The position numbers were made by a program, and so were the translations under genes. The notes beneath the pieces are model-generated. The model was not told the origin of the DNA. It saw only the letters and a program-made list of their open reading frames with translations, and ran no database searches. Positions 2,381 to 18,313 of a stretch of DNA of 64,000 nucleotides are shown piece by piece. The DNA comes from Bizionia sp. GTDB lineage: Bacteria > Bacteroidota > Bacteroidia > Flavobacteriales > Flavobacteriaceae. Each line of letters opens with the position of its first letter. Position 1 is the stretch's first letter. Location of the stretch: contig JAHDHI010000012.1 of the NCBI GenBank assembly GCA_020631395.1, positions 1 through 64,000 of the forward strand, given 5' to 3'.

Positions 2381-2617
2381 TTGAAACTCACTTTAGCACA
2401 TCTTAAGCGCGGCGAAAATGCGATAATAGCAGATGTATCATCCATACATATACCATTAAAACTATTGGAAATGGGCTGTTTGCCAGGAAACAGTGTCAAG
2501 TTGGTACAGGTTGCGCCTTTTGCAGATCCCATGTATCTCAACATAAATGGAAGTCATTTGGCAATAAGAAAAGAGACGGCACAACATATATTAATTGAAA
2601 ATGTAACGCATGAGTAA
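2381..2617 (+). CDS. feoA: FeoA family protein
   Basis: Small SH3-like cytoplasmic partner of the ferrous iron transporter FeoB. 78 residues, a typical FeoA length, with the family pattern LKRGENAIIADV...LEMGCLPGNSVKLVQVAPFADPMYLNINGSHLAIRKETA. The start is TTG, because no ATG or GTG precedes the conserved N-terminus. Its end overlaps feoB by 8 nt, so the two are translated as one operon. Confidence 0.93.
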   Translation: MKLTLAHLKRGENAIIADVSSIHIPLKLLEMGCLPGNSVKLVQVAPFADPMYLNINGSHLAIRKETAQHILIENVTHE

Positions 2618-4709
2618 GCAGTTGAATGTCGCTTTGATAGGGAACCCAAATACGGGTAAGACTTCTGTTTTCAATGCATTGACTGGTTTAAATCAGAAAG
2701 TAGGCAACTATCCTGGAATTACAGTCGAAAAAAAAGAAGGTATATGCAAGTTGCCAAGAGGAGTAAAGGCTCATATAATAGACTTACCGGGAACTTACAG
2801 CTTAAACGCATCGTCGCTAGATGAAAATGTGGTTATCGAATTGCTTTTAAATAGGAACGACAAAGATTTTCCTGATGTAGCGGTCGTGGTTAGCGATGTA
2901 GAGAACTTGAAGCGAAATCTATTGTTGTTTACTCAAATCAAGGATTTGGAAATCCCTTGCTTGTTGGTTATAAACATGGCCGACAGGATGAAATACAAAG
3001 GGATCTCTTTGGACATAGATTATTTGGAAACCCAATTGGAAACCAAAATAGCATTGATAAGCACTCGTAAAAATGAGGGGATAGATAATTTGAAGTTGCT
3101 GATTACTAGCTATAAGGAGTTGTCCACAAAACCTTGTTTAAGTGCTTCGGAAATCGACAAGGAATATTTTGGAAGGCTGCAAAAGGCATTTCCAAACCAA
3201 TTGCTATACAAGTTGTGGTTGGTCATCACTCAAGATGTCAACTTCGGAAAGACGGATAGAAAAGAAATGGATGCCATTGCCAGTTTCAAGACAAAGTCCA
3301 TAAATGATTTAAAGCGATTGCAACAAAAAGAAACGATAAAACGCTATCAATTCATAAATGAAACATTAAAGAAAGGACAAACGATAGACGTTTCGCAGGC
3401 AAAGGATTTACGAACCAAGTTCGATAGGGTTTTAACGCACAAGGTATGGGGCTATGCAATCTTCTTTCTTATCTTATTGACGATCTTTCAAGCAATTTAC
3501 GATTGGTCGAGCATACCAATGGAATTTATAGATGGGACGTTTGCCTCATTGAGCGAATGGATGAAAAACGTCTTGCCTCAAGGAGCTTTCACAAACTTGA
3601 TAGCAGAAGGAATCATACCGGGATTGGGAGGAATCGTCATATTCATTCCACAGATAGCCTTTCTGTTTTTGTTCATTGCAGTATTGGAGGAAAGCGGTTA
3701 CATGAGTCGTGTGGTCTTTTTGATGGATCGTATAATGAGGCGATTTGGATTGAGTGGAAAAAGCGTGGTGCCTCTCATTTCCGGAACGGCTTGTGCCATT
3801 CCAGCCATAATGGCGACACGTAACATAGAAAGTTGGAAAGAACGTTTGATTACCATATTGGTGACACCGTTTACAACATGTTCGGCAAGGCTTCCCGTAT
3901 ATTTGATAATTATCTCCTTGGTAATTCCAGAAGGACGTTTCATCGGGTTGAGTTATCAAGCGTTGACCTTGATGCTGTTGTATTTGATCGGGTTTGGGGT
4001 AGCAATAGTTTCAGCATACATCTTGAACAAGGTACTTAGAATTAAGAGCAAGACCTTCTTTGTGGTGGAAATGCCCAACTACAAATTGCCAATGTTCAAA
4101 AATGTGGCATTGACGGTTTTGGAGAAGACAAAGTCCTTCATCTTTGGAGCAGGAAAGATCATTTTGGCAATATCCATCATACTTTGGGTTCTCGCATCCT
4201 ATGGCCCTGGAGAACAGTTCAACAATGCTGAAGCCATCGTAACCAATGAATATGCATCTCAGCATTTGGAGGAAGAGGAATTACAACAAAAGATAGCATC
4301 TCATAAACTGGAGCATTCATTCATCGGTATTACAGGTAGAGCGATAGAACCGGCAATAAGACCATTGGGTTACGATTGGAAGATAGGGATAGCATTGGTG
4401 AGTTCCTTTGCTGCAAGAGAAGTTTTCGTCGGTACTTTGGCAACGATTTACAGTGTGGGGAGCGATGATGAAGCCACCATAAAGAATCGGATGGCTGCAG
4501 AGGTAAATCCCATCTTGGGAGGTCCTCTCTTTAATTTTGCTTCGGGAATTTCGCTGTTGTTGTTCTATGCATTTGCAATGCAGTGCATGAGTACGTTGGC
4601 GATTGTAAAGAAGGAAACCAATAGTTGGAAATGGCCAACCTTGCAGTTGGTGATCATGACGGCATTGGCTTATGTTGCGGCATTGATTGCGTATCAATTT
4701 TTGAAATGA
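2610..4709 (+). CDS. feoB: Ferrous iron transporter FeoB
   Basis: Membrane Fe(II) transporter with an N-terminal G domain. The P-loop is GNPNTGKTS near residues 11-19, G3 is DLPGT near 58-62, and the NMAD motif is near 121-124. The C-terminal half (residues about 275-699) carries two Gate motifs around conserved cysteines (GTACAIPA and TPFTTCSARLPVY) and many membrane helices. 699 residues is normal. The ATG lies inside the end of feoA, and a small FeoB-associated peptide follows 49 nt downstream. Confidence 0.97.
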   Translation: MSKQLNVALIGNPNTGKTSVFNALTGLNQKVGNYPGITVEKKEGICKLPRGVKAHIIDLPGTYSLNASSLDENVVIELLLNRNDKDFPDVAVVVSDVENLKRNLLLFTQIKDLEIPCLLVINMADRMKYKGISLDIDYLETQLETKIALISTRKNEGIDNLKLLITSYKELSTKPCLSASEIDKEYFGRLQKAFPNQLLYKLWLVITQDVNFGKTDRKEMDAIASFKTKSINDLKRLQQKETIKRYQFINETLKKGQTIDVSQAKDLRTKFDRVLTHKVWGYAIFFLILLTIFQAIYDWSSIPMEFIDGTFASLSEWMKNVLPQGAFTNLIAEGIIPGLGGIVIFIPQIAFLFLFIAVLEESGYMSRVVFLMDRIMRRFGLSGKSVVPLISGTACAIPAIMATRNIESWKERLITILVTPFTTCSARLPVYLIIISLVIPEGRFIGLSYQALTLMLLYLIGFGVAIVSAYILNKVLRIKSKTFFVVEMPNYKLPMFKNVALTVLEKTKSFIFGAGKIILAISIILWVLASYGPGEQFNNAEAIVTNEYASQHLEEEELQQKIASHKLEHSFIGITGRAIEPAIRPLGYDWKIGIALVSSFAAREVFVGTLATIYSVGSDDEATIKNRMAAEVNPILGGPLFNFASGISLLLFYAFAMQCMSTLAIVKKETNSWKWPTLQLVIMTALAYVAALIAYQFLK

Positions 4710-4758
4710 TATCTTTACGGGAAGTAAATTCATGATATTTTAAAACGACCAAGGAGAA

Positions 4759-4893
4759 ATGAACACCATTATTCAAGAAATACTAGTTTTTGCAACATTG
4801 GCATTAGCAGTATTGTTTTTGGTCAAGAAGTTTTTTTTGAAGAAACGAAAGCCTAAAAAGGCTTGCGGGACTGATGATTGTGGTTGCCATTGA
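4759..4893 (+). CDS. FeoB-associated Cys-rich membrane peptide (44 aa)
   Basis: A 44-codon ORF after feoB encodes MNTIIQEILVFATLALAVLF, a single N-terminal membrane helix. It is followed by a basic KKRKPKK stretch and a cysteine/histidine tail, ACGTDDCGCH. Position, size and the terminal Cys cluster match the FeoB_associated family of short proteins encoded beside feoB, which probably assist the transporter at the membrane. ATG start with an A/G-rich aaggagaa just before it. Confidence 0.85.
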   Translation: MNTIIQEILVFATLALAVLFLVKKFFLKKRKPKKACGTDDCGCH

Positions 4894-4937
4894 TGTGTCC
4901 ATTTTGAAGAGAAACCTCAATTTTGCAATAAACCAAT

Positions 4938-5165
4938 TTGGCATCAATAATTATTCTCGTCGCTTTTTACTTCGATTTCAAATCAGACAAAGTATCATTT
5001 TTCAATGATTTGAAAGGAGGTTTGCTCGTTTGTGCATTCTTTCTTTCGTATGGATTGGTACTAAGGCATATCTTTGAAATAGGCTTGCTTTACATCGTGT
5101 TTTCAATAGGAGTCGAAATCCTTTTGATGTTCTCCATAAAAGCCCTTATGGACAATAAACGTTAA
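4938..5165 (+). CDS. Small hydrophobic membrane protein, function unknown
   Basis: 75 codons with TTG as the only usable start, since an in-frame stop lies two codons upstream. The protein has two or three hydrophobic segments (IIILVAFYFDF, GLLVCAFFLSYGLVL, IGLLYIVFSIGVEILLMFSI) and a polar tail. Its stop overlaps the convergent gene at 5162 by 4 nt. No family was recognised. The ORF could be spurious, but the hydrophobic periodicity and tight convergent ending favour a gene. Confidence 0.45.
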   Translation: MASIIILVAFYFDFKSDKVSFFNDLKGGLLVCAFFLSYGLVLRHIFEIGLLYIVFSIGVEILLMFSIKALMDNKR

Positions 5166-5584
5166 TGTTTCACGATCAATTGAATGTAATAGTCCTCTTT
5201 TTCCAGTTTTTTGCCATAGACAGGATATGGAGAAAGGTCATGACCAGTTACGTTCAATCCTTCAGAGGCAAAAATATTTGCAAATTGATCTTTAAGCTTT
5301 GAAGAAGAGTCAAAAGTCAATTTCTTTTGCCCTATTTTCTCACCATTCTTAAAAACGTCTACTAAAACTGTAGCTTCCCCAGCCCAAACGCAATTAACAT
5401 TTTTGGGACAACGAGAGTCCGTCACTACTTCCACGAACTTTATGTCAACAGTGTCAAAATGCATTAGTTTGCCAAGTTGTAGCTTGGAAACTATTCTTGG
5501 AGTTTCAGCTTTTACCTTGGTAGAATCTTGAGCAGTACCTAGGGCTGTGAGGAAAAATGTGATGATAAATGCTATGGACTTCAT
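5162..5584 (-). CDS. Secreted protein of unknown function with CPxNVxCVWAGEA motif
   Basis: 140 residues with an N-terminal signal peptide (MKSIAFIITFFLTALGTAQ). The mature part is small and beta-rich, with the motif DSRCPKNVNCVWAGEATV, whose two cysteines could form a disulfide. This motif recurs in short exported Bacteroidota proteins of unknown role. It is divergent from the mntR-type regulator at 5710, with 125 bp between the two starts. Confidence 0.7.
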   Translation of the reverse strand: MKSIAFIITFFLTALGTAQDSTKVKAETPRIVSKLQLGKLMHFDTVDIKFVEVVTDSRCPKNVNCVWAGEATVLVDVFKNGEKIGQKKLTFDSSSKLKDQFANIFASEGLNVTGHDLSPYPVYGKKLEKEDYYIQLIVKH

Positions 5585-5655
5585 TGTAATCGTGTTTTTA
5601 GATCATAAATATAGCGTAAATCGTGCCAAAGTGTAGTAAATATTATTTTTTTAGT

Positions 5656-5686
5656 TATATTTGAAAAATATTTAAGTAAGCTTAAA
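5656..5686 (+). promoter_or_regulatory. Promoter and putative operator of the metal operon
   Basis: A consensus -7 box TATATTTG occupies 5656-5663. Directly downstream, over the expected transcription start, is an inverted repeat TTTAAG (5671-5676), TAAG, CTTAAA (5681-5686). Placement at the start point suits repression by the DtxR/MntR-type protein encoded next; autoregulation is inferred. Confidence 0.5.
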
Positions 5687-5709
5687 AAAATATTTAAACA
5701 AGTAATAAA

Positions 5710-6369
5710 ATGTCTGTAGCCATAGAGAACTTTGTAAAGGCGATTTACAAGAATAACAAACAAGACAACAGTGACACCAAGCCAGGAAACATTGCAAAAA
5801 AGTTAGGGATATCTAGTGCAGCTGCTACCGATATGGCCAAGAAATTGGCTACCAAGGACTTGTTGCACTATGAAAAATACCAAGCTTTGAAGCTCACTGA
5901 AAAAGGAGAGAAGATGGCATTGAATGTTATAAGGAAGCATCGTCTTTGGGAAGCGTTGTTGTATAAGTTATTCGATATGTCCTTACATGAAATTCATCGA
6001 GAAGCAGAATTTTTGGAACACGAAACTTCAGATTTTCTAACCGAAAAGATAAGTGCCTATTTGGGAAACCCCAAGTTCGATCCTCACGGAGACCCGATTC
6101 CAAATTCTAATGGGGAAATTACTACGGAAGATACATCCATTGCATTGTCCAATGCAAAAGAAGGAGAAGCATATGTAATCTCTCGCTTGATGAGCGAAGA
6201 CAAGGAATTCTTTGATTTTTGTGCACAACATGGATTGAAATATGGAAATTCCATTTTGGTTTCCAAACAATTCAACAACAATAAAATGACTCAAATATTA
6301 ATTAACAACAATACGATTCTATTAAACGAAGACTTCACAAAAATTATTTATGTTAACGAAATTCTATAA
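5710..6369 (+). CDS. DtxR/MntR family metal-dependent regulator
   Basis: 219 residues. The N-terminal winged helix (about 1-70) includes KPGNIAKKLGISSAAATDMAKKLATKDLLHYEKYQALKLT. The dimerisation and metal-binding region (about 72-140) carries the family signature RKHRLWEALLYKLFDMSLHEIHREAEFLEHE. A FeoA/SH3-like C-terminal part (about 150-219) resembles that of DtxR and IdeR. It probably senses Mn(II) or Fe(II) and represses the uptake operon it heads. Its last codons overlap the TonB receptor gene by 20 nt. Confidence 0.9.
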   Translation: MSVAIENFVKAIYKNNKQDNSDTKPGNIAKKLGISSAAATDMAKKLATKDLLHYEKYQALKLTEKGEKMALNVIRKHRLWEALLYKLFDMSLHEIHREAEFLEHETSDFLTEKISAYLGNPKFDPHGDPIPNSNGEITTEDTSIALSNAKEGEAYVISRLMSEDKEFFDFCAQHGLKYGNSILVSKQFNNNKMTQILINNNTILLNEDFTKIIYVNEIL

Positions 6370-8608
6370 ACTGCTACTATTAAGCATACTGCTTACAACC
6401 TCAATAAATGCACAAAATATCAAGGGGAGCGTCTCCTCGTTGGAAGGAGAAATCTTACCATATGCCAATGTATACCTAAAAAATACGACCAAAGGGAGTA
6501 CCGTGAACGAAGAGGGAACCTATGTTATAGGAAACATAGAGAATGGCAGTTATATGATGGTCGCTTCATTTACAGGCTACAAGACTGTTGAAAAGGCAAT
6601 CGAAATTTCAAACAATGACGTGACGATGAATTTCATACTCGAGGAAGATGAGGCATTGGATGAAATAACGATAACAGGAACTCTGAAAGCGGTTTCAAGG
6701 CTGGAAAGCGCAGTGCCTGTTGAAATCTATACGCCCACTTTCTTCAAAAGAAACCCAACGCCCAATATTTTCGAGGCCCTTCAAAATGTAAACGGAGTAA
6801 GACCCCAACTTAATTGCAATGTTTGCAATACGGGAGACATTCACATTAACGGACTGGAAGGGCCTTATACCTTGGTGCTCATTGATGGCATGCCAATTGT
6901 AAGTGGTCTGTCTACGGTCTATGGGCTGTCAGGTATCCCTAATTCTCTAATTGAACAGGTGGAGATCGTAAAAGGACCAGCATCCTCTTTATATGGAAGT
7001 GAAGCCGTAGGTGGCTTGATAAACATCATAACCAAGTTACCAGAGAATGCACCTCAGTTTTTTTCGGAAGCTTTTGTGACTGGCTGGGGCGAAGCCAATG
7101 TGGATTTGGGGTTTAAAACAAATGTAGGAAAGATGGCAAACGTCTTGTTTGGGGCAAACTACTACAATTATTCAAATCCAATAGACGACAACAACGATAA
7201 TTTTACAGACGTGACCTTGCAAGACCGTATTTCGGTTTTTCAAAAATGGAGCTTCAAACGTAATGATAATCGTTTGTTTTCCCTAGCTGGACGCTATTTT
7301 TATGAAGATCGTTGGGGAGGTGAATTGCAATGGAATAAAGGCTTTAGAGGAGGAAATGAAGTTTACGGAGAAAGTATTTACACTTCACGTTTCGAAATAT
7401 TGGGAAATTATCAATTGCCGGTCAAGGAGAAGGTCAATTTCCAATTCTCATATTCGGACCATGATCAGAATTCAGTTTATGGAGACATGTCATATCTAGC
7501 ACAACAACGCATAGGCTTTGGGCAATTGGTGTGGGATAAATCATTGGAAAAGCATGATCTTTTATTTGGGGCAGCCCTTCGCTATAATTACTATAATGAC
7601 AATACGCCAGCAACATTGGAGGCAGACGAGGTAACCATACCATCGGTTTTTGTTCAAGATGAAATTGAGATTGCAGAAAAACAGAAGATTTTATTGGGAG
7701 CGAGGTATGATTATGATGACAGACATGGTTCAATTTTCACACCACGTTTTGCATATAGATATAAACCCACGGAAGATGACATCATAAGGTTGAATGCAGG
7801 AACTGGGTTTAGAGTCGTGAATTTGTTTGCGGAAGAGCACGCCGCACTTACGGGAGCTAGGGACGTCATTATAGAAGAAGCCCTGGATCCTGAACGATCC
7901 TATAATGTGACGTTGAATTATTTGAAGAAGCTATATTTGAAGAGTGGGATGCATTTTACTTTCGATGCTTCTGCTTGGTATACTTATTTTACCAATGCGA
8001 TTATTCCAGATTACGATACCAATCCAAATCAGATTATTTATGACAACTTGGATGGGAATTCCAGAACAAAGGGAATTAGCTTCAATGTCGATGCCGTTTT
8101 TGGTAGTGGAATAAAAGGCTCTGTAGGAGCTACGTTTCAAGATGTCTCACAAAAGGAGAATGGAGTGAAAACGCAGCAAATTCTAACAGAGCGATTTACT
8201 GGAGTTTGGTCTTTTAGTTATAAGCATTATAAGACAAATCTAAAATTGGACTATACAGGTAACATATATGGGCCAATGCGATTGCCAACGCTTGGTGAGT
8301 TGGATCCGCGAAGTGACTATTCCCCTACTTGGAGCATTCAAAACATCCAATTGACCTATGATGGAATAGACAACTTTGAAGCTTATTTGGGGGTTAAAAA
8401 CCTATTGGACTGGACCCCTAATAAAGGAAATCCCTTTATTATTGCAAGAGCAGAGGATCCATTTGATGAGAATGTTCAATTTGACAATGAAGGGCAAGTG
8501 GTGGCAACACAGGAAAACCCATATGCATTGACATTCGATCCAGCTTACGTATATGGTCCCAATCAAGGAATACGTTTGTTTTTTGGATTGAGGTATACCT
8601 TGAAGTAG
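6350..8608 (+). CDS. TonB-dependent outer-membrane receptor
   Basis: 752 residues: signal peptide (to about NAQ, residue 22), CarboxypepD_reg-like domain (about 25-110), plug domain (about 120-230, including VLIDGMPIVSG and VEIVKGPASSLYGSEAVGGLINIIT), then a 22-strand-type barrel ending in an aromatic residue pattern (RLFFGLRYTLK). The plug contains a CNVC pair. Lying between a metal regulator and a metal ABC importer, it most likely brings a metal complex across the outer membrane; the ligand cannot be read from sequence. The start overlaps the regulator gene, so the two are probably translationally coupled. Confidence 0.93.
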   Translation: MLTKFYKLLLLSILLTTSINAQNIKGSVSSLEGEILPYANVYLKNTTKGSTVNEEGTYVIGNIENGSYMMVASFTGYKTVEKAIEISNNDVTMNFILEEDEALDEITITGTLKAVSRLESAVPVEIYTPTFFKRNPTPNIFEALQNVNGVRPQLNCNVCNTGDIHINGLEGPYTLVLIDGMPIVSGLSTVYGLSGIPNSLIEQVEIVKGPASSLYGSEAVGGLINIITKLPENAPQFFSEAFVTGWGEANVDLGFKTNVGKMANVLFGANYYNYSNPIDDNNDNFTDVTLQDRISVFQKWSFKRNDNRLFSLAGRYFYEDRWGGELQWNKGFRGGNEVYGESIYTSRFEILGNYQLPVKEKVNFQFSYSDHDQNSVYGDMSYLAQQRIGFGQLVWDKSLEKHDLLFGAALRYNYYNDNTPATLEADEVTIPSVFVQDEIEIAEKQKILLGARYDYDDRHGSIFTPRFAYRYKPTEDDIIRLNAGTGFRVVNLFAEEHAALTGARDVIIEEALDPERSYNVTLNYLKKLYLKSGMHFTFDASAWYTYFTNAIIPDYDTNPNQIIYDNLDGNSRTKGISFNVDAVFGSGIKGSVGATFQDVSQKENGVKTQQILTERFTGVWSFSYKHYKTNLKLDYTGNIYGPMRLPTLGELDPRSDYSPTWSIQNIQLTYDGIDNFEAYLGVKNLLDWTPNKGNPFIIARAEDPFDENVQFDNEGQVVATQENPYALTFDPAYVYGPNQGIRLFFGLRYTLK

Positions 8609-8702
8609 TCCGTTGGACAAAACAAAACATAATGACGATGAACTTTCTTGACCAAGTAGTGAATGTTACAAATGACCGATAAAAAACAATAAATATAACC
8701 AG

Positions 8703-9617
8703 ATGAAAAAAAGTATAGCAATCTTATATATCATTTTACTTACGTTTAGTTGTAAGAATGAACAGAAAAAAGAAAATGGGAAACTAAACGTCGTAACGAC
8801 GACTACGATGATAACCGATTTGGTTGAAAACATAGGTGGAGATAACATAGAACTCAAAGGCTTGATGGGGAGCGGAGTCGATCCACATTTGTACAAAGCG
8901 AGTGAAGGTGATGTCTCTAAACTCGTGAATGCGGATGTCATTTTCTACAACGGATTGCATTTGGAAGGAAAACTGGTTGAAGTCTTTGAAAAGATGGGAA
9001 GCCAAGCAAAGACACAAATAGCCTTGGCAGAAGCTTTGGATAAGAGTACATTGATTGGTTCGGAGTATTTTGCATCAAACTATGATCCGCACGTGTGGTT
9101 CGATATGGATTATTTCAAGGCATTTGCAAAACGAGTAACCGAAGTGTTATCAGAAAAAGATTCCAAAAACGCAGCCAGTTACAAGGAAAATGAAAAGAAA
9201 TATTTGGCAAAGCTAGATGCGCTACAATCAAAATTATCAGTAACGATAGAAACATTGCCAAAGGAAAACCGTATTTTGGTAACTGCTCATGATGCTTTTA
9301 ATTACTTTGGGAAGGCTTTCGATTTCGAAGTTGTGGGTTTACAAGGACTATCCACTGCAACGGAAGCAGGAGTGCAAGATGTTCAAAAATTGGCAGCGTT
9401 CATCATCGAAAAGGACGTAAAGGCCATTTTTGTGGAAAGCTCTGTGCCAAAACGAACGATAGAAGCATTGCAAGCAGCAGTAAAATCCAAAGGACATGAT
9501 GTTGCCATTGGAGGGACTTTGTATTCCGATGCCTTGGGAAATGCAGGAACCATAGAAGGAACTTACATCGGGATGTTCGAATACAATGTGAATACCATTG
9601 TGAATGCACTTAAATAA
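8703..9617 (+). CDS. TroA/ZnuA-like metal-binding lipoprotein of an ABC importer
   Basis: 304 residues. Lipoprotein signal with lipobox ending at Cys17 (ILLTFSC). Cluster A-I metal ligands are visible: His in GVDPHLYKAS, His in YDPHVWFDM, His in VTAHDAFNYFG and Asp in TLYSDALG. A His rather than Glu at the third site resembles TroA/ZnuA more than PsaA/MntC, so Zn or Mn is the likely substrate. It is followed 8 nt later by a thioredoxin-like gene and then the ATPase and permeases. Confidence 0.93.
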   Translation: MKKSIAILYIILLTFSCKNEQKKENGKLNVVTTTTMITDLVENIGGDNIELKGLMGSGVDPHLYKASEGDVSKLVNADVIFYNGLHLEGKLVEVFEKMGSQAKTQIALAEALDKSTLIGSEYFASNYDPHVWFDMDYFKAFAKRVTEVLSEKDSKNAASYKENEKKYLAKLDALQSKLSVTIETLPKENRILVTAHDAFNYFGKAFDFEVVGLQGLSTATEAGVQDVQKLAAFIIEKDVKAIFVESSVPKRTIEALQAAVKSKGHDVAIGGTLYSDALGNAGTIEGTYIGMFEYNVNTIVNALK

Positions 9618-9625
9618 TTAAAGAA

Positions 9626-10300
9626 ATGAAGGTCTTAAAGCAATATTTTTTTTGCCTCATCCCTTATTGCCTAATAATTTTGGCGATCTTTTGGGTAAAG
9701 CAGAATACTAGTAAGTATGATAAGAACATACAATTGAGCGATATTGCTTTAAAAAATCAGTTTGGCGAATTAAAAACAATAGCAGACTATAAAGGAAAAG
9801 TGATATTGATGGATTTCTGGTTTGCCGGTTGTATGCCTTGTGTAAAGGAAATGGAGTACTTTCCAGAATTGTTGAATAAGTATAAAGAGGATTTGGTGAT
9901 AATGAGTGTGACTTTCGATTTAGAATCTACAACTCAAGAATTATTATCCAACAAAAAGGAACCATGGGATTTTTTAATAGCCAATAATCCTAATTGGACC
10001 TTTTACAACAATAAATATGGCGAAGATTATATAAAACGTCTTAATATAACAGCGTATCCGACCTATTTGTTGTTCAATAGGAAAGGGGAATTGATAAGTA
10101 CGCCGTCCAGTGGCATCTATGGAGTGGAAAACGAGTTAAGTGGTTTTTTCGGTTTGGACATAACCTTAAAGAAAAACATCAAAGAAATAATTTCAAGAGC
10201 TTTTAAGTTTCTAGTAGCCTATACCATTATTTTTGGTATTGTATTTATAGTTGTCAACTATTTGAAAGGCAAAATGGGAAAAACCAAACACCATAATTAA
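9626..10300 (+). CDS. TlpA-like thioredoxin-fold protein with two membrane segments
   Basis: 224 residues. N-terminal anchor (about 8-24), then a periplasmic thioredoxin-like domain with active site [16 protein letters not shown] (CxxC at about residues 68-71), and a second hydrophobic segment near 190-210 ([19 protein letters not shown]). Thiol-disulfide oxidoreductases of the TlpA/ResA type keep periplasmic thiols reduced. This one sits inside a metal ABC operon, between binding protein and ATPase, 14 nt before the latter, which is unusual. It may act on cysteine-containing partners such as the CNVC plug of the receptor, but that is a guess. Confidence 0.8.
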
Positions 10301-10314
10301 AAGGCAAGAATGTC

Positions 10315-11052
10315 ATGAGCAAGAACATAGCAGTAAAAGTAGACGATTTGACGGTGGCGTACAATTACAAGCCTGTGCTTTGGGATATCGATTTGGAAAT
10401 TCCTGAAGGTGTGCTTATGGCCATAGTAGGCCCCAATGGAGCAGGGAAGTCGACATTGATAAAATCCATCCTTGGTATTTTGAAACCCATAGCAGGAAGT
10501 GTAAGCATATATGACAAGCCATATGAAAAACAACGTTCCTTGGTAGCCTACGTACCACAGAAGGGAAGTGTGGATTGGGATTTCCCGACTACGGCCTTGG
10601 ATGTGGTCATGATGGGAACCTATGGAAGTCTAGGTTGGATAAGAAGACCGAAGCAGAAAGAAAAGAAAATGGCTTTGGAAGCTCTGGAAAAGGTAGGGAT
10701 GTTGGCTTTCAAAGGAAGGCAAATCAGTCAGCTCTCAGGAGGGCAACAACAACGCATCTTTTTGGCTAGGGCATTGGTGCAAAATGCATCCATCTATTTC
10801 ATGGATGAGCCTTTTCAAGGTGTGGACGCCACCACAGAAATAGCCATCATCAACATATTGAAGGAATTGAGAAAAGCTGGGAAAACGGTAATCGTCGTGC
10901 ATCATGATTTGCAAACCGTACCAGAATACTTCGATTGGGTGACCTTTTTGAATGTGAAGAAGATAGCAACAGGGCCTGTGAAGGATATTTTCAATGATGA
11001 CAATTTGACCAAGACGTATGGCATCAACTACAAGGTTAGTATTCAGGAATAG
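10315..11052 (+). CDS. Metal ABC transporter ATP-binding protein
   Basis: 245 residues with Walker [10 protein letters not shown] (about 41-49), Q-loop [15 protein letters not shown], signature LSGGQQQR (about 141-148) and Walker B IYFMDEP, followed by the H-loop histidine in VVHHDL. The SVDWDFP stretch after the Q-loop is typical of Mn/Zn ATPases (MntB, ZnuC, TroB). It is the energy subunit for the two permeases downstream. Confidence 0.95.
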
Positions 11053-11134
11053 TAGACTGTAATGAAACATTGACGATTAGGGCTAGAGCACAGCAAAATG
11101 ATTATGCAGTGGATAAAAACATAAATATAAACAG

Positions 11135-11494
11135 ATGAAAACAGAAATTTCAATAGATGCAGCAATCAATAGAGGTCATTTGCTTGTGAATCTCCCCGTG
11201 TTTATTGCTATGTTTGGAATACCAAGTTTGTTTCATATGTTGGATGCAGACAAAAAAATGGTTTTGATCGGCCTTGTTTCAGGATTCATCTTGGGATGGT
11301 TGGTTTGGAGTTGTCTTATAACCAAATGGAAGATATGGGCCTATGAAAACGTGGCGAATTTAGATGAGTTGAAAAGGAAGGCAATTGAAGAAAAATTGAT
11401 CTGGAGGGACGGTCATATTTTCACGAAAACCGAAATTAGAAGTAGAACTGATAAGATTAAATTAAGAGCACTAGAAAAAAGGTTTAACGATTAA
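11135..11494 (+). CDS. Small membrane protein, function unknown
   Basis: 119 residues with two hydrophobic helices (about 17-35 and 44-65: VLIGLVSGFILGWLVWSCLI) and a basic cytoplasmic tail. No family was recognised. It lies between the ATPase and the first permease, co-directional, 82 nt after the former, so it is probably an operon member and perhaps an accessory of the transporter. Confidence 0.65.
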   Translation: MKTEISIDAAINRGHLLVNLPVFIAMFGIPSLFHMLDADKKMVLIGLVSGFILGWLVWSCLITKWKIWAYENVANLDELKRKAIEEKLIWRDGHIFTKTEIRSRTDKIKLRALEKRFND

Positions 11495-11503
11495 AGATCA
11501 ACT

Positions 11504-12634
11504 ATTATAGACTTTCAAGAATACATATCACTCGTTTTCTCCGATTACACACTTAGGACCATTACACTGGGGACAGCCATACTTGGAGCTGTTTGTGGAA
11601 TGCTGGGTAGTTTTGCCGTTTTAAGAAAGCAAAGCCTTTTGGGAGATGCGATTTCCCATGCGGCATTGCCAGGGATAGCCATCGCATTTTTAATTACTGG
11701 TGCAAAGGACAGCAATGTATTGTTGTTGGGGGCTTTGGTAAGCGGATTGATAGGAACCTTTTGGATTCGTGGCATTACCACCAAGACGCATTTGAAATCG
11801 GATACGGCATTGGGGCTTATCCTGTCTTTGTTCTTTGGATTTGGGATGTTGTTGCTAACCTTCATACAAAAGCAACCCAATGCCAATCAGGCAGGTTTGG
11901 ACAAATACTTGTTTGGGCAAGCTGCAACCTTGGTGGAAGGCGATGTATGGTTAATGGTCATTGTGACTGGAGCCTGCCTCGTTGTACTTTTGTTGTTTTG
12001 GAAGGAGTTCAAGATATTGCTGTTCGATGCCGACTATACCAAAACATTGGGTTTCAACACCAAATTCATAGACATTCTAATTACCAGTTTCATAGTGTTG
12101 GCAATCGTTTTGGGGTTGCAAACGGTAGGTGTTGTTCTAATGAGTGCCATGTTGTTGGCTCCAGCTGCAGCAGCAAGACAGTGGACGAACAGTTTGGGGA
12201 TCATGGTGTTTCTTGCTGCCATTTTTGGTGCTTTTTCCGGCGTTTTTGGAACTGCGATCAGTGCAACACAAAATAATTTGTCTACAGGCCCAGTGATTGT
12301 TCTGGTGGCTTCGGTATTTGTGCTGTTTTCCTTTGTGTTTTCGCCAAGTAGGGGATTGCTGTTCAAGCAAATTCGCTTTATAAAGAATCGTCGAGACTTG
12401 AAGCTTCACAAAACATTGGCGTTCATGTACAACATAGCGGAGACTCACGATGATGTTTCACACCCACATACCATCAAAATTTTAAATAACTTCCAAGGAT
12501 ATACGCGTGGAACGCTTCAAAAGCTAGTAGATAAAAACTATGTGGTGTTGGATGGGACAATGTGGAGTTTGACGGAAGAAGGATTCAAGACCGCATCCAA
12601 TTTGTATAATCAACAAACCAATGACAATGAGTAA
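11504..12634 (+). CDS. Metal ABC permease 1 (ABC-3 family) with C-terminal winged-helix-like tail; non-canonical start
   Basis: Membrane subunit of the importer, ZnuB/MntC type, with about eight helices and the conserved pattern LRKQSLLGDAISHAALPGIA. The first ATG (11600) cuts off conserved residues (DYTLRTITLGTAILGAVCG) that are encoded in frame back to about 11510. That stretch contains no ATG, GTG or TTG, and the in-frame stop is at 11492-11494, so the start is probably ATT (11504) or ATA (11507). The last 90 residues (from about KNRRDLKLHKTLAFMY) look like a winged helix (TRGTLQKLVDKNYVVLDGTMWSLTEEG). Its end overlaps permease 2 by 14 nt. Confidence 0.85.
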   Translation: MIDFQEYISLVFSDYTLRTITLGTAILGAVCGMLGSFAVLRKQSLLGDAISHAALPGIAIAFLITGAKDSNVLLLGALVSGLIGTFWIRGITTKTHLKSDTALGLILSLFFGFGMLLLTFIQKQPNANQAGLDKYLFGQAATLVEGDVWLMVIVTGACLVVLLLFWKEFKILLFDADYTKTLGFNTKFIDILITSFIVLAIVLGLQTVGVVLMSAMLLAPAAAARQWTNSLGIMVFLAAIFGAFSGVFGTAISATQNNLSTGPVIVLVASVFVLFSFVFSPSRGLLFKQIRFIKNRRDLKLHKTLAFMYNIAETHDDVSHPHTIKILNNFQGYTRGTLQKLVDKNYVVLDGTMWSLTEEGFKTASNLYNQQTNDNE

Positions 12635-13787
12635 TGCTCAAATAGAAATACAACTCATTGCGAGTTTGGTGGCCATAGCCTGCGCCATTCCAGGTACTTT
12701 TTTGATATTGCGAAAAATGGCAATGATAAGTGATGCCATAAGTCACTCGATATTGCCGGGAATTGTCATTGGTTTTTTCATTACTCAAGATCTCAATTCC
12801 CCGCTATTGATACTTCTAGCTGCCTTTACGGGAATCATTACGGTAGTTTTGGTAGAACGTATTCAGAAGACCGGATTGGTAAAGGAAGATACGGCGATTG
12901 GGTTGGTTTTTCCTGCTTTGTTTAGCATTGGGGTAATTTTGATAGCCAAGAACGCGAACGATGTGCACTTGGATGTCGATGCCGTGTTGTTGGGAGAGTT
13001 GGCTTTCGCTCCTTTCGACAGGTTGTTGATTGCTGGGACGGACATTGGTCCGAAGTCGCTATGGGTAATAGGTATTGTTTTGATGGTTACCGTTGGCTTG
13101 TTGATTGCTTTTTTCAAGGAGTTGAAAGTAAGTACTTTCGATGCTGGTCTATCTGCGTCTCTAGGCTTTTCTCCAGTTGTGATTCATTATGGGTTGATGA
13201 CGGTTTCTTCCGTGACCACAGTTGGGGCTTTCGATGCAGTCGGAGCCATTTTGGTTGTCGCCTTGATGATTGCACCAGCTGCGAGCGCGTATTTGTTAAC
13301 GACCGATTTGAAGAAGATGTTGTTGCTGTCCATAGGCTTTGGAGTGTTAAGCGCCATTTCTGGATATTGGTTTGCACATTGGTTGGATGCATCGATTGCC
13401 GGTTCCATCACAACCATGTTGGGGCTTCTGTTTTTAGTGATTTACCTATTTGCCCCAACCAAGGGGTTAATAGCTGTAGTTTATAGGGAAAGGCAACAGC
13501 GAATGGAGGTTTCGCTATTGACGTTCTTGTTGCATTTGAAAAATCACAATGAAGAAGTGGAACGACATGTAAATCATTTGCGAGAGCATATAAATTGGCA
13601 AAAGGTAAGGGCCAAGACCGTATTGGAATTAGCCCTGAAAAACAATATGATAGAGATTGATGAAAATATCGTATCGCTCACCAAAAAAGGAAATGCATTC
13701 ACATCCAAAGCCATAGACTATATCATTACCAACGAAGATTCGCAGATTGAGGACATGAAAGACGATTTCTTTTTGTTTAGAGGTTAG
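12621..13787 (+). CDS. Metal ABC permease 2 (ABC-3 family) with C-terminal winged-helix-like tail
   Basis: 388 residues; ABC-3 permease with signature LRKMAMISDAISHSILPG and about eight helices up to residue 285. The C-terminal 95 residues (HNEEVERHVNHLREHINWQKVRAKTVLELALKNNMIEIDENIVSLTKKG) resemble a winged helix, as in permease 1. Such tails are known on some Bacteroidota and Firmicutes permeases, where a DtxR-like domain is fused. Two permease genes suggest a heterodimeric channel. The stop codon overlaps that of a degenerate minus-strand fragment. Confidence 0.92.
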   Translation: MTMSNAQIEIQLIASLVAIACAIPGTFLILRKMAMISDAISHSILPGIVIGFFITQDLNSPLLILLAAFTGIITVVLVERIQKTGLVKEDTAIGLVFPALFSIGVILIAKNANDVHLDVDAVLLGELAFAPFDRLLIAGTDIGPKSLWVIGIVLMVTVGLLIAFFKELKVSTFDAGLSASLGFSPVVIHYGLMTVSSVTTVGAFDAVGAILVVALMIAPAASAYLLTTDLKKMLLLSIGFGVLSAISGYWFAHWLDASIAGSITTMLGLLFLVIYLFAPTKGLIAVVYRERQQRMEVSLLTFLLHLKNHNEEVERHVNHLREHINWQKVRAKTVLELALKNNMIEIDENIVSLTKKGNAFTSKAIDYIITNEDSQIEDMKDDFFLFRG

Positions 13788-15587: not shown

Positions 15588-17654
15588 CTAGTTGAAATCA
15601 TCGTTCAAGGCTTGCAATGCCTTTTTCAATTCTTCAAGGGAGACCTCCTTGAAATTCAAGTCCAATTCAGATGTTTTCTTTGTCTCTGTATCTTTTGTTC
15701 CAAGATATATTTTGTTCCCCACTTTTTTTATGGCGACCAATGAGATTGTCTCTCCTTCTGGAACTGTTCCAAAATCGAAGTTGTTTTTATATTTTCTACT
15801 TGGTAGGATGGAACTCATGCTTTTAAAAACCATTTTCAAATTGGCCCCTTCGGCATCTTTTATCTTTAATCGATATCGGACTCTTTTTCCCGTCATTCTT
15901 GCAAAACGATCACAATTGATCCAGCCAAGGTTGGAAACAGCAAAGGAGTAACGTTCTATTTCCGATTGTTTTATGTTTCGTATGGAGTCTGTTTTCATTC
16001 TCGCTTCAAAAGATTCCGTGAATTTATGTTCACCTTTGACTATGATGGGGGCAAAGTTTCTATTGGGACCTTCTCGCTTTATGTTAATGGGCAGATAATA
16101 TGGGACTCTCACAGACTTGCCTCGTTGTATGGCTGGTTGCATTTTTGGTATGAGGTTAACTACCCTTACGGCTTCTTCTGCCAATGCCTTATGTGAAGCT
16201 CTGGCTCTTAAATCAACAATTTCTCCTTCTTTGTCGATTTTAAAGAATACGCTTATTTTAATTTTCCCTGTCAGTTTTAAATCTTCCGCAATGTCAGTAT
16301 CGAATTCTCTTCTTAGGAGCCTATTGATGTTGTCGTTTAGGCATTTTCGTCTATCTCGGTTGTTGGTTACACTTTCACATCCAGGATAGGTAGGAACGTT
16401 TTCCACAACATTGAGAGCGACTTCTATATCTTCTTCAAAGACTACGGATGCAGAATCTTTCGTACTGGTGAAAACAGGTTTTGATTGTTTGGTCAATTTC
16501 CAGTTTATGTTGTCTTGTTGTTGTATCCCAGAGAATAATTGCATCCCTTGTTTGTTTTTATCCGGAAAGGCAATGGTCATTGTTTTGGTGTCTGCTAGCT
16601 TTAACTCTTTTCCATTCTTGCTGGCTTTGATAAACAACATCCCACCGGTTTCCAATATGTTTTCGTCGGATTTCGTGTTTAGGTTGGCCAATAGCATGTC
16701 TGATAATTTGTAGTACTCGATGACTTCCAATTTGATCTTACCGCGAGCAAGTCTGTTGTTATCTTTGTATGCAAAAGACTTTGGTGCAATGGTTATAACT
16801 GTTCCTTCCTTGCAAGTCAGTGAACTTTCTTTTTCTACATTTATGGTAAGTACTTGAGGCTCTTTTTTTATGGATTTGTATAAAGCAACAAGTTCTGGGC
16901 TCAACGCTTCTGGTGATTCCAGTAGGGTTGTATCTTCTACTGAATTGATTTGTTCGGGAATTTCGGTGTCTGCAATACTTTCTTGAGTGTCGACTATTTT
17001 TCCATTTTGTATCTTGTTATCTAGAGTTGCAGCAGCGTCATCTATTTTTGATTCCAACATTTCACGAGAATACTTCTTATGGAAAACAATGGTGTCGTTT
17101 TTAGGTGTTACATTTTTAATTTCTGGAAAATCAGATTTTATGTCATCTATGTTGGAGTAATTTAAATAGGAAATCAGTTCAATGTCTTCTAAGATTATGA
17201 TGCCTCCATACTTTTTAGTTTCTTTTTCATTTACAACGGTGGAATCTCTTTTGTAAACTAGAACATATTTTTTTACCGAATCTGTTTGTATCTTGTTTTC
17301 AATTGCATTGTAATCAGTGTTTGTCGTTGTGGCATCTATTTCGGGTTTTATGATTCCAGTCGTGTTTGCCTTGAGAAAGAGATTGTAAATCAAAATGGAA
17401 ACTAAAACGACACCTAAAGTCATGCCTAGATGCTTTATCCATTTGGCTTTGATGTGCCTTTTGCGAGCAGCAAGTATGTCCTCTTTCAAATGTACGCGTT
17501 TCATACCTTCCAAGAAGGTCAAATGTTCTTGATAGAGCGCATTGAATGCTTCATCTGTCTTTAATTTTCTTTCAAAAAGCAATCTTTCGTCTTTGGTAAG
17601 CGTATTGTCAATGTATCCATTGATTGAGTCTATGTCTTCTATATGTATTTTCAT
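15588..17654 (-). CDS. Anti-sigma-like membrane protein with internal TonB C-terminal domain
   Basis: 688 residues. The N-terminal cytoplasmic part (about 1-72: IEDIDSINGYIDNTLTKDERLLFERKL) resembles anti-sigma N-termini, and a membrane helix follows at about 75-92. A periplasmic region (about 290-410) carries EGTVITIAPKSFAY. At about 425-530 is a TonB C-terminal-like domain: YPGCESVTNNRDRRKCL, VFFKIDKEGEIVDLRARASHKALAEEAVRVVNLIPKMQPAIQRGKSVRVPYYLPINI. A further domain ends the protein. Its start overlaps the stop of the sigma factor gene by 4 nt, making a sigma/anti-sigma operon. The role of the TonB domain is unknown; it may sense a TonB-dependent receptor. Confidence 0.8.
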   Translation of the reverse strand: MKIHIEDIDSINGYIDNTLTKDERLLFERKLKTDEAFNALYQEHLTFLEGMKRVHLKEDILAARKRHIKAKWIKHLGMTLGVVLVSILIYNLFLKANTTGIIKPEIDATTTNTDYNAIENKIQTDSVKKYVLVYKRDSTVVNEKETKKYGGIIILEDIELISYLNYSNIDDIKSDFPEIKNVTPKNDTIVFHKKYSREMLESKIDDAAATLDNKIQNGKIVDTQESIADTEIPEQINSVEDTTLLESPEALSPELVALYKSIKKEPQVLTINVEKESSLTCKEGTVITIAPKSFAYKDNNRLARGKIKLEVIEYYKLSDMLLANLNTKSDENILETGGMLFIKASKNGKELKLADTKTMTIAFPDKNKQGMQLFSGIQQQDNINWKLTKQSKPVFTSTKDSASVVFEEDIEVALNVVENVPTYPGCESVTNNRDRRKCLNDNINRLLRREFDTDIAEDLKLTGKIKISVFFKIDKEGEIVDLRARASHKALAEEAVRVVNLIPKMQPAIQRGKSVRVPYYLPINIKREGPNRNFAPIIVKGEHKFTESFEARMKTDSIRNIKQSEIERYSFAVSNLGWINCDRFARMTGKRVRYRLKIKDAEGANLKMVFKSMSSILPSRKYKNNFDFGTVPEGETISLVAIKKVGNKIYLGTKDTETKKTSELDLNFKEVSLEELKKALQALNDDFN

Positions 17655-18208
17655 GAGATTTCGAATTGAGATTGGACAGTTTTAGATTGAGTGTCGTAGA
17701 TGCCTTTTGCCTTTTTTAGGCATTTGTACTTTTGGTTTTTTGCAATTTTCTCTGATTTGAATTGCATGCCCTCGGCAATGTCCTTGAAAGACATTTTCTT
17801 GAGATAAAACCATTGTAGCAATTGTTGGCAACGTTCTCCTAATTCGCGAAATGCTTGTTCTGCAAGCTGGTACTTCTTTTCTTCTAGAACACTATGGAAG
17901 ATGGATACTTCATCCGTCTTCAAATCATGCAGTTCTTGTTTTGAGAATTGTCTTTGTTGGTCTTTCCATATGAAGCGGGAGACGGAATGGAGATAGGTGT
18001 AAAAGGAAGCCGTCAATGTGAAATCCGATTTCTCGAGATTGCGATGCAATACGATCAAAGCTTCCTGAAATACATCACTAGCATCGGCTTTTGTGCCGCC
18101 TTTGGATACAATGACTTTTTCTATTCTTGGATAGAGTTTGTATAATTCCCGAAACGCCTTGTCTCGATGACCATTCTTGAAAAGTGCTATTGTTCTTTGA
18201 TCGCTCAT
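17651..18208 (-). CDS. ECF-type RNA polymerase sigma factor
   Basis: 185 residues with sigma region 2 (about 20-85: AFRELYKLYPRIEKVIVSKGGTKADASDVFQEALIVLHRNL) and region 4 (about 115-165: LGERCQQLLQWFYLKKMSFKDIAEGMQFKSEKIAKNQKYKCLKKAK). It encodes no other domain. It is translationally coupled (4-nt overlap) to the membrane anti-sigma-like gene, so its activity is probably held at the membrane until a periplasmic signal arrives. Confidence 0.93.
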   Translation of the reverse strand: MSDQRTIALFKNGHRDKAFRELYKLYPRIEKVIVSKGGTKADASDVFQEALIVLHRNLEKSDFTLTASFYTYLHSVSRFIWKDQQRQFSKQELHDLKTDEVSIFHSVLEEKKYQLAEQAFRELGERCQQLLQWFYLKKMSFKDIAEGMQFKSEKIAKNQKYKCLKKAKGIYDTQSKTVQSQFEIS

Positions 18209-18313
18209 TAGAGTATTTTACCTATTAATGGTCATTTTGTAAAAAGGTCTCCCAAATAATTCGAAATTAATTTAAAACTAAGGTAGGGAAATAGAATCTA
18301 AACTAACTTTCTT

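Follow-up and report, generated by a model that had tools for sequence, protein, structure and literature searches.

Why would the membrane partner of an extracytoplasmic function (ECF) sigma factor carry a domain of the TonB family? This question is raised by a locus of Bizionia sp. (Flavobacteriaceae; GenBank assembly GCA_020631395.1, contig JAHDHI010000012.1) within the 64,000-nucleotide stretch of DNA analysed here, referred to as the window. An initial reading of the letters alone (the sequence-only reading) had described positions 15588-18208 as one protein, joining an anti-sigma-like N-terminus, one membrane helix and a TonB C-terminal domain, and had proposed that it reads receptor occupancy and controls a coupled ECF sigma factor. 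The range in fact covers two minus-strand genes, sigma then partner: an ECF sigma factor of 185 residues (P0002, 17651-18208) and a putative membrane anti-sigma protein of 688 residues (P0001, 15588-17654). The two genes overlap by 4 bp at an ATGA (17651-17654) that holds the sigma stop and the partner start. The TonB_C domain of the partner is genuine and lies inside the protein. Very probably it is a strand-accepting docking module, whatever its ligand; our tentative preference, put at slightly under an even chance, is for an autoregulated pair whose docking arm accepts TonB boxes from at least one outer-membrane receptor.

The sigma protein scored 56 bits against TIGR02937 (cut-off 42.9) and 29.2 bits against Pfam Sigma70_r2 (cut-off 24); its sigma region 4 reached 14.1 bits, below the Pfam cut-off of 25.7. 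The intergenic gap, −4 in the window, is +5 to +21 in 27 of the 29 other loci listed. We hold it highly probable that the two genes encode a sigma/anti-sigma pair, with binding of the sigma factor by its partner predicted.

For the anatomy of the partner, a five-orthologue alignment, profile searches, and an AlphaFold model built on 44 sequences were used. The model had a mean predicted local distance difference test score (pLDDT) of 76.7 and a predicted template modelling score (pTM) of 0.39, whereby the relative placement of domains is unreliable. Residues 1-73 (17436-17654; all partner features are on the minus strand) form a cytoplasmic, putatively sigma-binding helical segment, recognized from orthologue conservation and from modelled helices at 2-15, 21-33, and 35-95. 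A single transmembrane segment at residues ~72-94 (17373-17441) was assigned from hydropathy (72-90), Lys/Arg bias, and the continuous model helix. Exactly one hydrophobic segment, with an excess of Lys/Arg on its N-terminal side, was found in 48 of 48 full-length partner proteins, bearing out the one membrane helix of the sequence-only reading. Its anti-sigma-like N-terminus fared less evenly: pairing with the sigma gene and the N-in topology speak for it, and matches to anti-sigma profiles were weak (zf-HC2 in 1 of 44 partners; NCBIfam "antisigma" in 2 of 44, best E 0.028). As judged from sequence, the label thus rests on context, topology, and these weak matches, not on a curated family.

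The TonB_C profile (PF03544) matched residues 456-524 with E 3e-7, scoring 31.2 bits where the curated cut-off is 24.6, and was the sole Pfam match at E ≤ 1 in the protein. The domain together with its VPxYPGC leader spans residues 408-530 (16065-16433), and because a single N-in membrane helix precedes it, it is placed in the periplasm. Searched in all six frames, the genome as a whole shows five TonB_C places, four of them over the cut-off, with that of the partner (16083-16289) third by score. Among 44 aligned full-length partners, that of the window included, 40 contained TonB_C at E ≤ 0.01. In the model, pLDDT was 88-94 across blocks 411-530, and the best nine rows of a VIA structure comparison were all C-terminal domains of TonB, TolA or FusB, a TonB homologue, with Z scores of 5.7-7.8. 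The top row was TonB of the FoxA complex (6i97_D; Z 7.8, 88 residues, root-mean-square deviation 2.7, 16% identity, model residues 418-529); an unrelated long-helix match stood just under these rows as the tenth (Z 5.5). A VIA Z below 8 is not decisive alone, and agrees here with the profile match. Foldseek also ranked 6i97_D first, but with an E of only 0.026. Searching PDB sequences with the TonB_C profile gave spurious leading matches and weak TonB matches, and the whole partner protein had no match there at E ≤ 1. Because the profile and the model agree and the domain is matched in 40 of the 44 proteins, a chance match is ruled out, and the segment does model as the TonB_C that the sequence-only reading had named. 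It is, however, internal, with ~158 residues after it, rather than C-terminal, and what had been read as a simple fusion holds TonB_C as just one of three periplasmic modules in the same protein.

The YP motif, a feature of E. coli TonB, is absent from the window TonB_C, where FDTD stands at that place. It is also missing from most of the aligned rows of the Pro-rich TonB of these bacteria (TonB1) and is present in L031, L032, and L035 (L, G, and C numbers denote loci, genomes, and contigs). Within this clade, on the aligned sequences, the motif is not diagnostic of TonB_C. In the FoxA–TonB complex, pairing with the TonB box involves residues 332-337 of TonB (PMC6699858). From the matching C-terminal ends of the two domains in the structure comparison, partner residues ~521-526, a strand reading LPINIK (16077-16094), would correspond to this pairing strand, an equivalence drawn without a residue alignment.

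A close full-length relative of the partner TonB_C proved to be the same genomes' own TonB1 (27/31 genomes searched). In the window genome the match between the two domains is 61% over 121 residues (59% by a second alignment). When 22 anti-sigma domains were set beside 26 TonB1 domains, 93 of 125 columns had the same modal residue in both sets. Of the 73 columns with at least 90% conservation in TonB1, 60 carry the TonB1 modal residue in the anti-sigma TonB_C as well, and the last strand, VxVPYxLPIxF, is largely common to both. TonB1 is like the partner TonB_C even in its leader, VPxFPGC, and differs in having a Pro-rich linker, TonB_C at its end, and neither of the other periplasmic modules of the partner. 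A tree of TonB_C domains (99 rows, few columns) placed 44 of 50 anti-sigma copies with 14 of 26 TonB1 rows in one weakly supported half; with so few columns, it neither supports nor excludes a single origin of the anti-sigma TonB_C. The own TonB1 was the best or tied best match of the anti-sigma TonB_C in 7 of 21 genomes, which is no more than suggestive of gene conversion between the two, relatedness between genomes being uncontrolled in this count.

Nonsynonymous and synonymous rates (dN/dS) were estimated by a simple counting method for one pair, the window gene and that of G001, a genome of the same genus; the partner gene of L132, from an uncultured Bizionia, is identical to that of G001. 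Values for the TonB_C part were 0.050/0.242, closely resembling the cytoplasmic part (0.046/0.223), and those for the two flanking modules, named ETGGM and GW, were 0.057/0.334 and 0.032/0.307, respectively. The variable domain gave 0.094/0.243 and the linker at residues 391-407 gave 0.70/0.475. By this measure, the partner TonB_C is under purifying selection.

The remaining periplasmic part begins with a variable small α/β domain at residues ~126-217 (17004-17279; pLDDT 75-85 in blocks 131-210), which is missing from the L037 partner. The ETGGM β domain follows at residues 262-390 (16485-16871), defined by alignment and model. Folded alone (54 sequences), it reached a pLDDT of 85.9, and its six best VIA rows were only GAIN domains of adhesion receptors or the FIIND of NLRP1, at weak Z scores of 4.0-5.8 over 99-122 of 132 residues, after which the score fell to 2.6; the tool itself notes that a best Z of 7-8 is usual even without a clear match. 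Foldseek returned no significant match for this model, the listed Pfam families (25 of a total of 29) included none of the GAIN, FIIND or ZU5 kind, and no known cleavage motif was recognized in the domain by eye. FecR (PF04773) matched weakly in 8 of 54 ETGGM segments, with a best E of 0.0059. The likeness of the modelled domain to GAIN/FIIND is a lead only. C-terminal to TonB_C, the GW-NCDRF domain (residues 562-688; 15591-15971), also drawn from alignment and model, is modelled as an immunoglobulin-like β sandwich whose structure matches, among the VIA rows listed, were generic sandwiches of that kind only.

A sigma profile was searched against 397 Flavobacteriaceae genomes at E ≤ 1e-30. Matches were found in 31 genomes, one per genome, the window and L007 standing for two of the 31 loci examined. 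In 30 of 31 loci the gene after sigma has the same N-terminal part as the partner; at the 31st (L093 5020-5715, genome G360), an internal deletion puts sigma residues 1-143 in frame with the remnant of the partner's GW domain. TonB_C is still encoded at 24 of the 31 loci, at 23 of them in one open frame and at L083 in a shifted frame. Of those without it, three (L070, L073, and L081) keep only a degenerate ETGGM + GW unit, two (L087 and L092) have a C-terminus matching none of the sensor profiles, and two (L093 and L094) are broken. Both sensor units stand in tandem in the partners of L036, L074, and L079. At L095, with a sigma factor 42% identical, TonB_C lies at the very end of the protein and scores 60 bits by a custom profile and 13.2 bits, under the cut-off, by Pfam.

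A second collection was made by scanning contigs with the ETGGM alignment, yielding 57 loci in Bizionia, Lacinutrix, Olleya, Psychroserpens, Winogradskyella, Mangrovimonas, and Hanstruepera, among others. At 46 of these, a sigma gene stands with a single frame that encodes all four partner parts, so that the architecture given in the sequence-only reading does recur; at the remaining 11 the pair is incomplete or broken, runs into a contig end, or is built differently. In a sample of 395 genomes from across the phylum, 19 contained ETGGM at E ≤ 1e-10. Among eight distant ETGGM proteins scanned with Pfam, TonB_C exceeded its cut-off only in L180 from Draconibacterium (57.7 bits, beside a sigma factor scoring just 25 bits), fell below it in L011 (12.7 bits) and L095, and gave no match in L181, L184, L186, L187 or L188. 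The order ETGGM-TonB_C-GW was also seen in two lipoprotein-like proteins, L229 and L230, which have no anti-sigma part and score 16 bits each with the TonB profile.

Upstream of the sigma gene lies a conserved 28-bp element, GGAGACCTTTTTACAAAATGACCATTAA (18225-18252, minus strand), of the form GGAGACCTTTT-N6-TGACCATTAA or a near copy. With up to two mismatches, the window genome holds three sites, one of them perfect and located at the operon, versus 10 for the reversed control pattern. Using a looser pattern with up to one mismatch, the element was found at the operon in 31 of 31 sigma-bearing genomes, the 55 matches comprising 31 at operons and 24 elsewhere (reversed control, 42). The strict element precedes 42 of 53 sigma genes of named loci; ten of the other 11 have a near copy by eye, and L180 has none. 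When the halves were allowed to lie 7-14 bases apart (27 genomes; G147, G227, G360, and G377 left out), exactly one match, always at the operon, was seen in 24 genomes and none in 3. There is thus one clear promoter-like site per genome, and from its position and exclusivity the element is probably the autoregulatory promoter of the sigma operon. The only clear second copy among the sites inspected (G163:C123; L129 8624-8956) precedes an open reading frame of 87 residues with a secretion-like start; a second site in G352 lies inside a coding frame, and one in G360 is unconvincing. No regulon beyond the operon could be recognized with these patterns in the 31 genomes. At L092 (4201-6544, genome G318), where the C-terminus of the partner differs, the element precedes a gene for a 209-residue lipoprotein-like protein, which is followed by sigma.

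Taken as a mechanism, the favored reading would run as follows. The N-terminal helical segment of the partner would hold the sigma factor in the cytoplasm, with one helix spanning the inner membrane and the ETGGM, TonB_C, and GW modules making up a periplasmic sensor. TonB_C, as a relative of the receptor-binding domain of TonB1, would act as a docking arm accepting a β strand, the likeliest being a TonB box offered by an outer-membrane receptor or by several of them. Once docked or released, the arm might alter the sensor, the partner might be cut or reshaped, and the freed sigma factor would use the 28-bp element to transcribe its own operon. It is reasonable to think of a sensor that contacts receptors, because the architecture recurs, the TonB_C domain resembles that of TonB1, and it is under purifying selection; to this extent the receptor sensor of the sequence-only reading is kept, while its more specific idea of reading occupancy is not borne out by a linked receptor or a wider regulon, and TonB_C occurs in other proteins as well.

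Several observations weigh against docking to receptors. No dedicated receptor gene lies beside the pair in the window, and no copy of the element was seen to precede a receptor gene. With the receptor of the window as the only query, 5 of the 57 loci had that receptor type within ~6 kb to either side. Each of the four FecR matches in the same genome lies 0.8-1.1 kb from a TonB-dependent receptor plug match (one of these plugs is just under cut-off), so the classical layout is present in this genome and is not shared by the pair. TonB_C is lacking at 7 of the 31 sigma loci, and the distant L187 and L188 carry related sigma, ETGGM, and GW, yet no TonB_C match. The anti-sigma copies of TonB_C do not form one clade in the tree, which needs seven changes, at least three of them forced by starred branches. 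The consensus of the last strand is also common to some other TonB_C proteins, and the domain occurs in an HExxH (M56-like) peptidase, a secreted protein, and lipoproteins; similarity to TonB_C is therefore no proof of receptor binding.

Some of these points also lend weight to another explanation, in which TonB_C is a general strand-accepting periplasmic domain of Bacteroidota, its ligand here is not a receptor, and the pair is an envelope-stress switch. Candidate ligands would be some misfolded protein or interaction partner, a lipoprotein, or a different stretch of the sensor protein itself. Consistent with this are three TonB_C proteins encoded in the same genome (the HExxH peptidase, a secreted one of 181 residues, and one resembling an outer-membrane barrel), as well as the two lipoprotein-like proteins L229 and L230, whose TonB profile score is, however, just 16 bits, and the lack of consistent receptor linkage across the 57 loci. 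It is countered by the 60 of 73 columns at which the anti-sigma TonB_C keeps the TonB1 consensus, which may exceed what the fold needs, although the comparison was with TonB1 alone. We regard the envelope-stress switch as a serious contender, somewhat short of an even chance; it stands close to receptor docking in likelihood because the conserved TonB1 consensus is set against the unlinked receptor and the spread of TonB_C.

Two further explanations fare far worse. That the partner is an energy-transducing TonB merely standing beside a sigma gene could be argued from TonB_C over the cut-off and one N-terminal membrane helix. Its TonB_C, though, has ~158 residues after it and other domains before it, the cytoplasmic segment is ~73 residues long, a Pro-rich linker is lacking, the protein is paired with the same sigma factor at 46 of 57 named loci, and the genome already has a Pro-rich TonB and an exbB-exbD-tonB-like cassette (names by eye); on architecture, this candidate was rejected as highly improbable. 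Slightly more improbable still is the view that the fusion is decaying and no longer has a function. A patchy distribution (31 of 397 genomes) and frameshifts, deletions or split frames in L083/L182, L093, L094/L136, L159, and L160 would suit a relic, but the dN/dS ratios of 0.10-0.21 in the cytoplasmic, ETGGM, TonB_C, and GW parts (two genomes), the conserved element, and an architecture intact at 46 of the 57 loci do not. A more daring form of receptor docking, which we think unlikely, is a force- or engagement-gated anti-sigma factor, whose TonB arm would compete with TonB for the exposed TonB boxes of many receptors, the pull reaching the GAIN/ZU5-like domain, which is closer to the membrane, so that the anti-sigma factor is cut.

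Signalling of the FecI/FecR type, as in FoxI/FoxR/FoxA, couples an ECF sigma factor and a membrane anti-sigma factor whose periplasmic sensor touches a TonB-dependent receptor (PMC11637429). The pair described here is alike in having an ECF sigma factor and a membrane anti-sigma factor with a periplasmic sensor, and unlike in that the window protein has no FecR match and no adjacent receptor. Furthermore, in FoxI/FoxR/FoxA the signalling domain of the receptor meets the STN-like domain of the anti-sigma factor, whereas here the anti-sigma factor carries the TonB-side domain. The Dma systems are ECF/anti-sigma pairs of Bacteroidota in which the N-terminus binds the sigma factor and a single helix leads into a long periplasmic part (PMC13088901), a layout that the window pair shares, its N-terminus being putatively sigma-binding. 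Dma ends in a β barrel after a long disordered tether, whereas the partner ends in a modelled immunoglobulin-like domain and has short disordered stretches. The partner may be a variant of membrane anti-sigma factors that lacks the features tested for FecR (an adjacent receptor) and for Dma (a barrel), and it may work similarly to either.

In RsgI/SigI, the SEA-like extracytoplasmic domain of the anti-sigma factor may cut itself; these systems belong to Gram-positive bacteria, with another sigma family and other sensor domains. In the literature searched, at the level of titles and abstract openings and among the matches listed, we recognized no paper reporting a TonB domain within an anti-sigma factor.

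The receptor gene of the window (6350-8608), identified by its plug match, is part of a metal-uptake locus (2610-13787, plus strand) ~7 kb from the pair, together with genes presumed from their motifs to encode FeoB, an MntR/DtxR-like regulator, a binding lipoprotein, a thioredoxin-like protein, an ABC ATPase, and two permeases. As a member of this locus with inconsistent linkage, it was ruled out as a dedicated receptor of the pair. The commonest neighbours tested were a TerB-DnaJ-like gene (46 of 57 loci) and a metal ABC permease (27 of 57).

Other TonB_C proteins were noted in the same genome. On C120 (L189 1771-3879, minus strand), a 702-residue protein with a signal-peptide-like start carries in its N-terminal part a domain resembling TonB_C (52 bits by the custom profile), and the long region behind this domain is barrel-like by eye; its gene adjoins TonB1 and TonB2, and several relatives keep the trio in this order. 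On C14 (L192 4251-5846, minus strand) is a membrane HExxH peptidase, M56/BlaR1-like by eye, with a flavobacterial TonB_C at its end. Like the partner, it is a membrane sensor-like protein; it differs in its HExxH architecture and in that no ECF sigma gene was noticed by eye in the surrounding 9 kb. C7 (L191 1628-6336, minus strand) carries two tandem exbB-exbD-tonB-like cassettes (names by eye), with ExbB apparently identical, ExbD nearly so, and different TonB-like ends. In other genomes, three or four TonB_C matches occur in series in frames of ~730-1010 residues (G008:C36, G086:C1, G264:C1, and G352:C1).

The presence of a TonB domain in an anti-sigma factor of marine flavobacteria suggests a switch that listens to nutrient import. 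A small soluble domain and TonB-box peptides would allow docking to receptors to be tested directly, and having just one clear promoter-like site would make for a clean reporter. Bacteroidota have tens of TonB-dependent receptors, and in the window genome 35 plug matches (33 over the cut-off) stand against only 4 FecR-type sensors found. If the force-gated form were true, the cell would gauge its overall import load, not a single nutrient. If the anti-sigma factor does carry the TonB side of the contact, this would be a different way of sensing import, perhaps across receptors.

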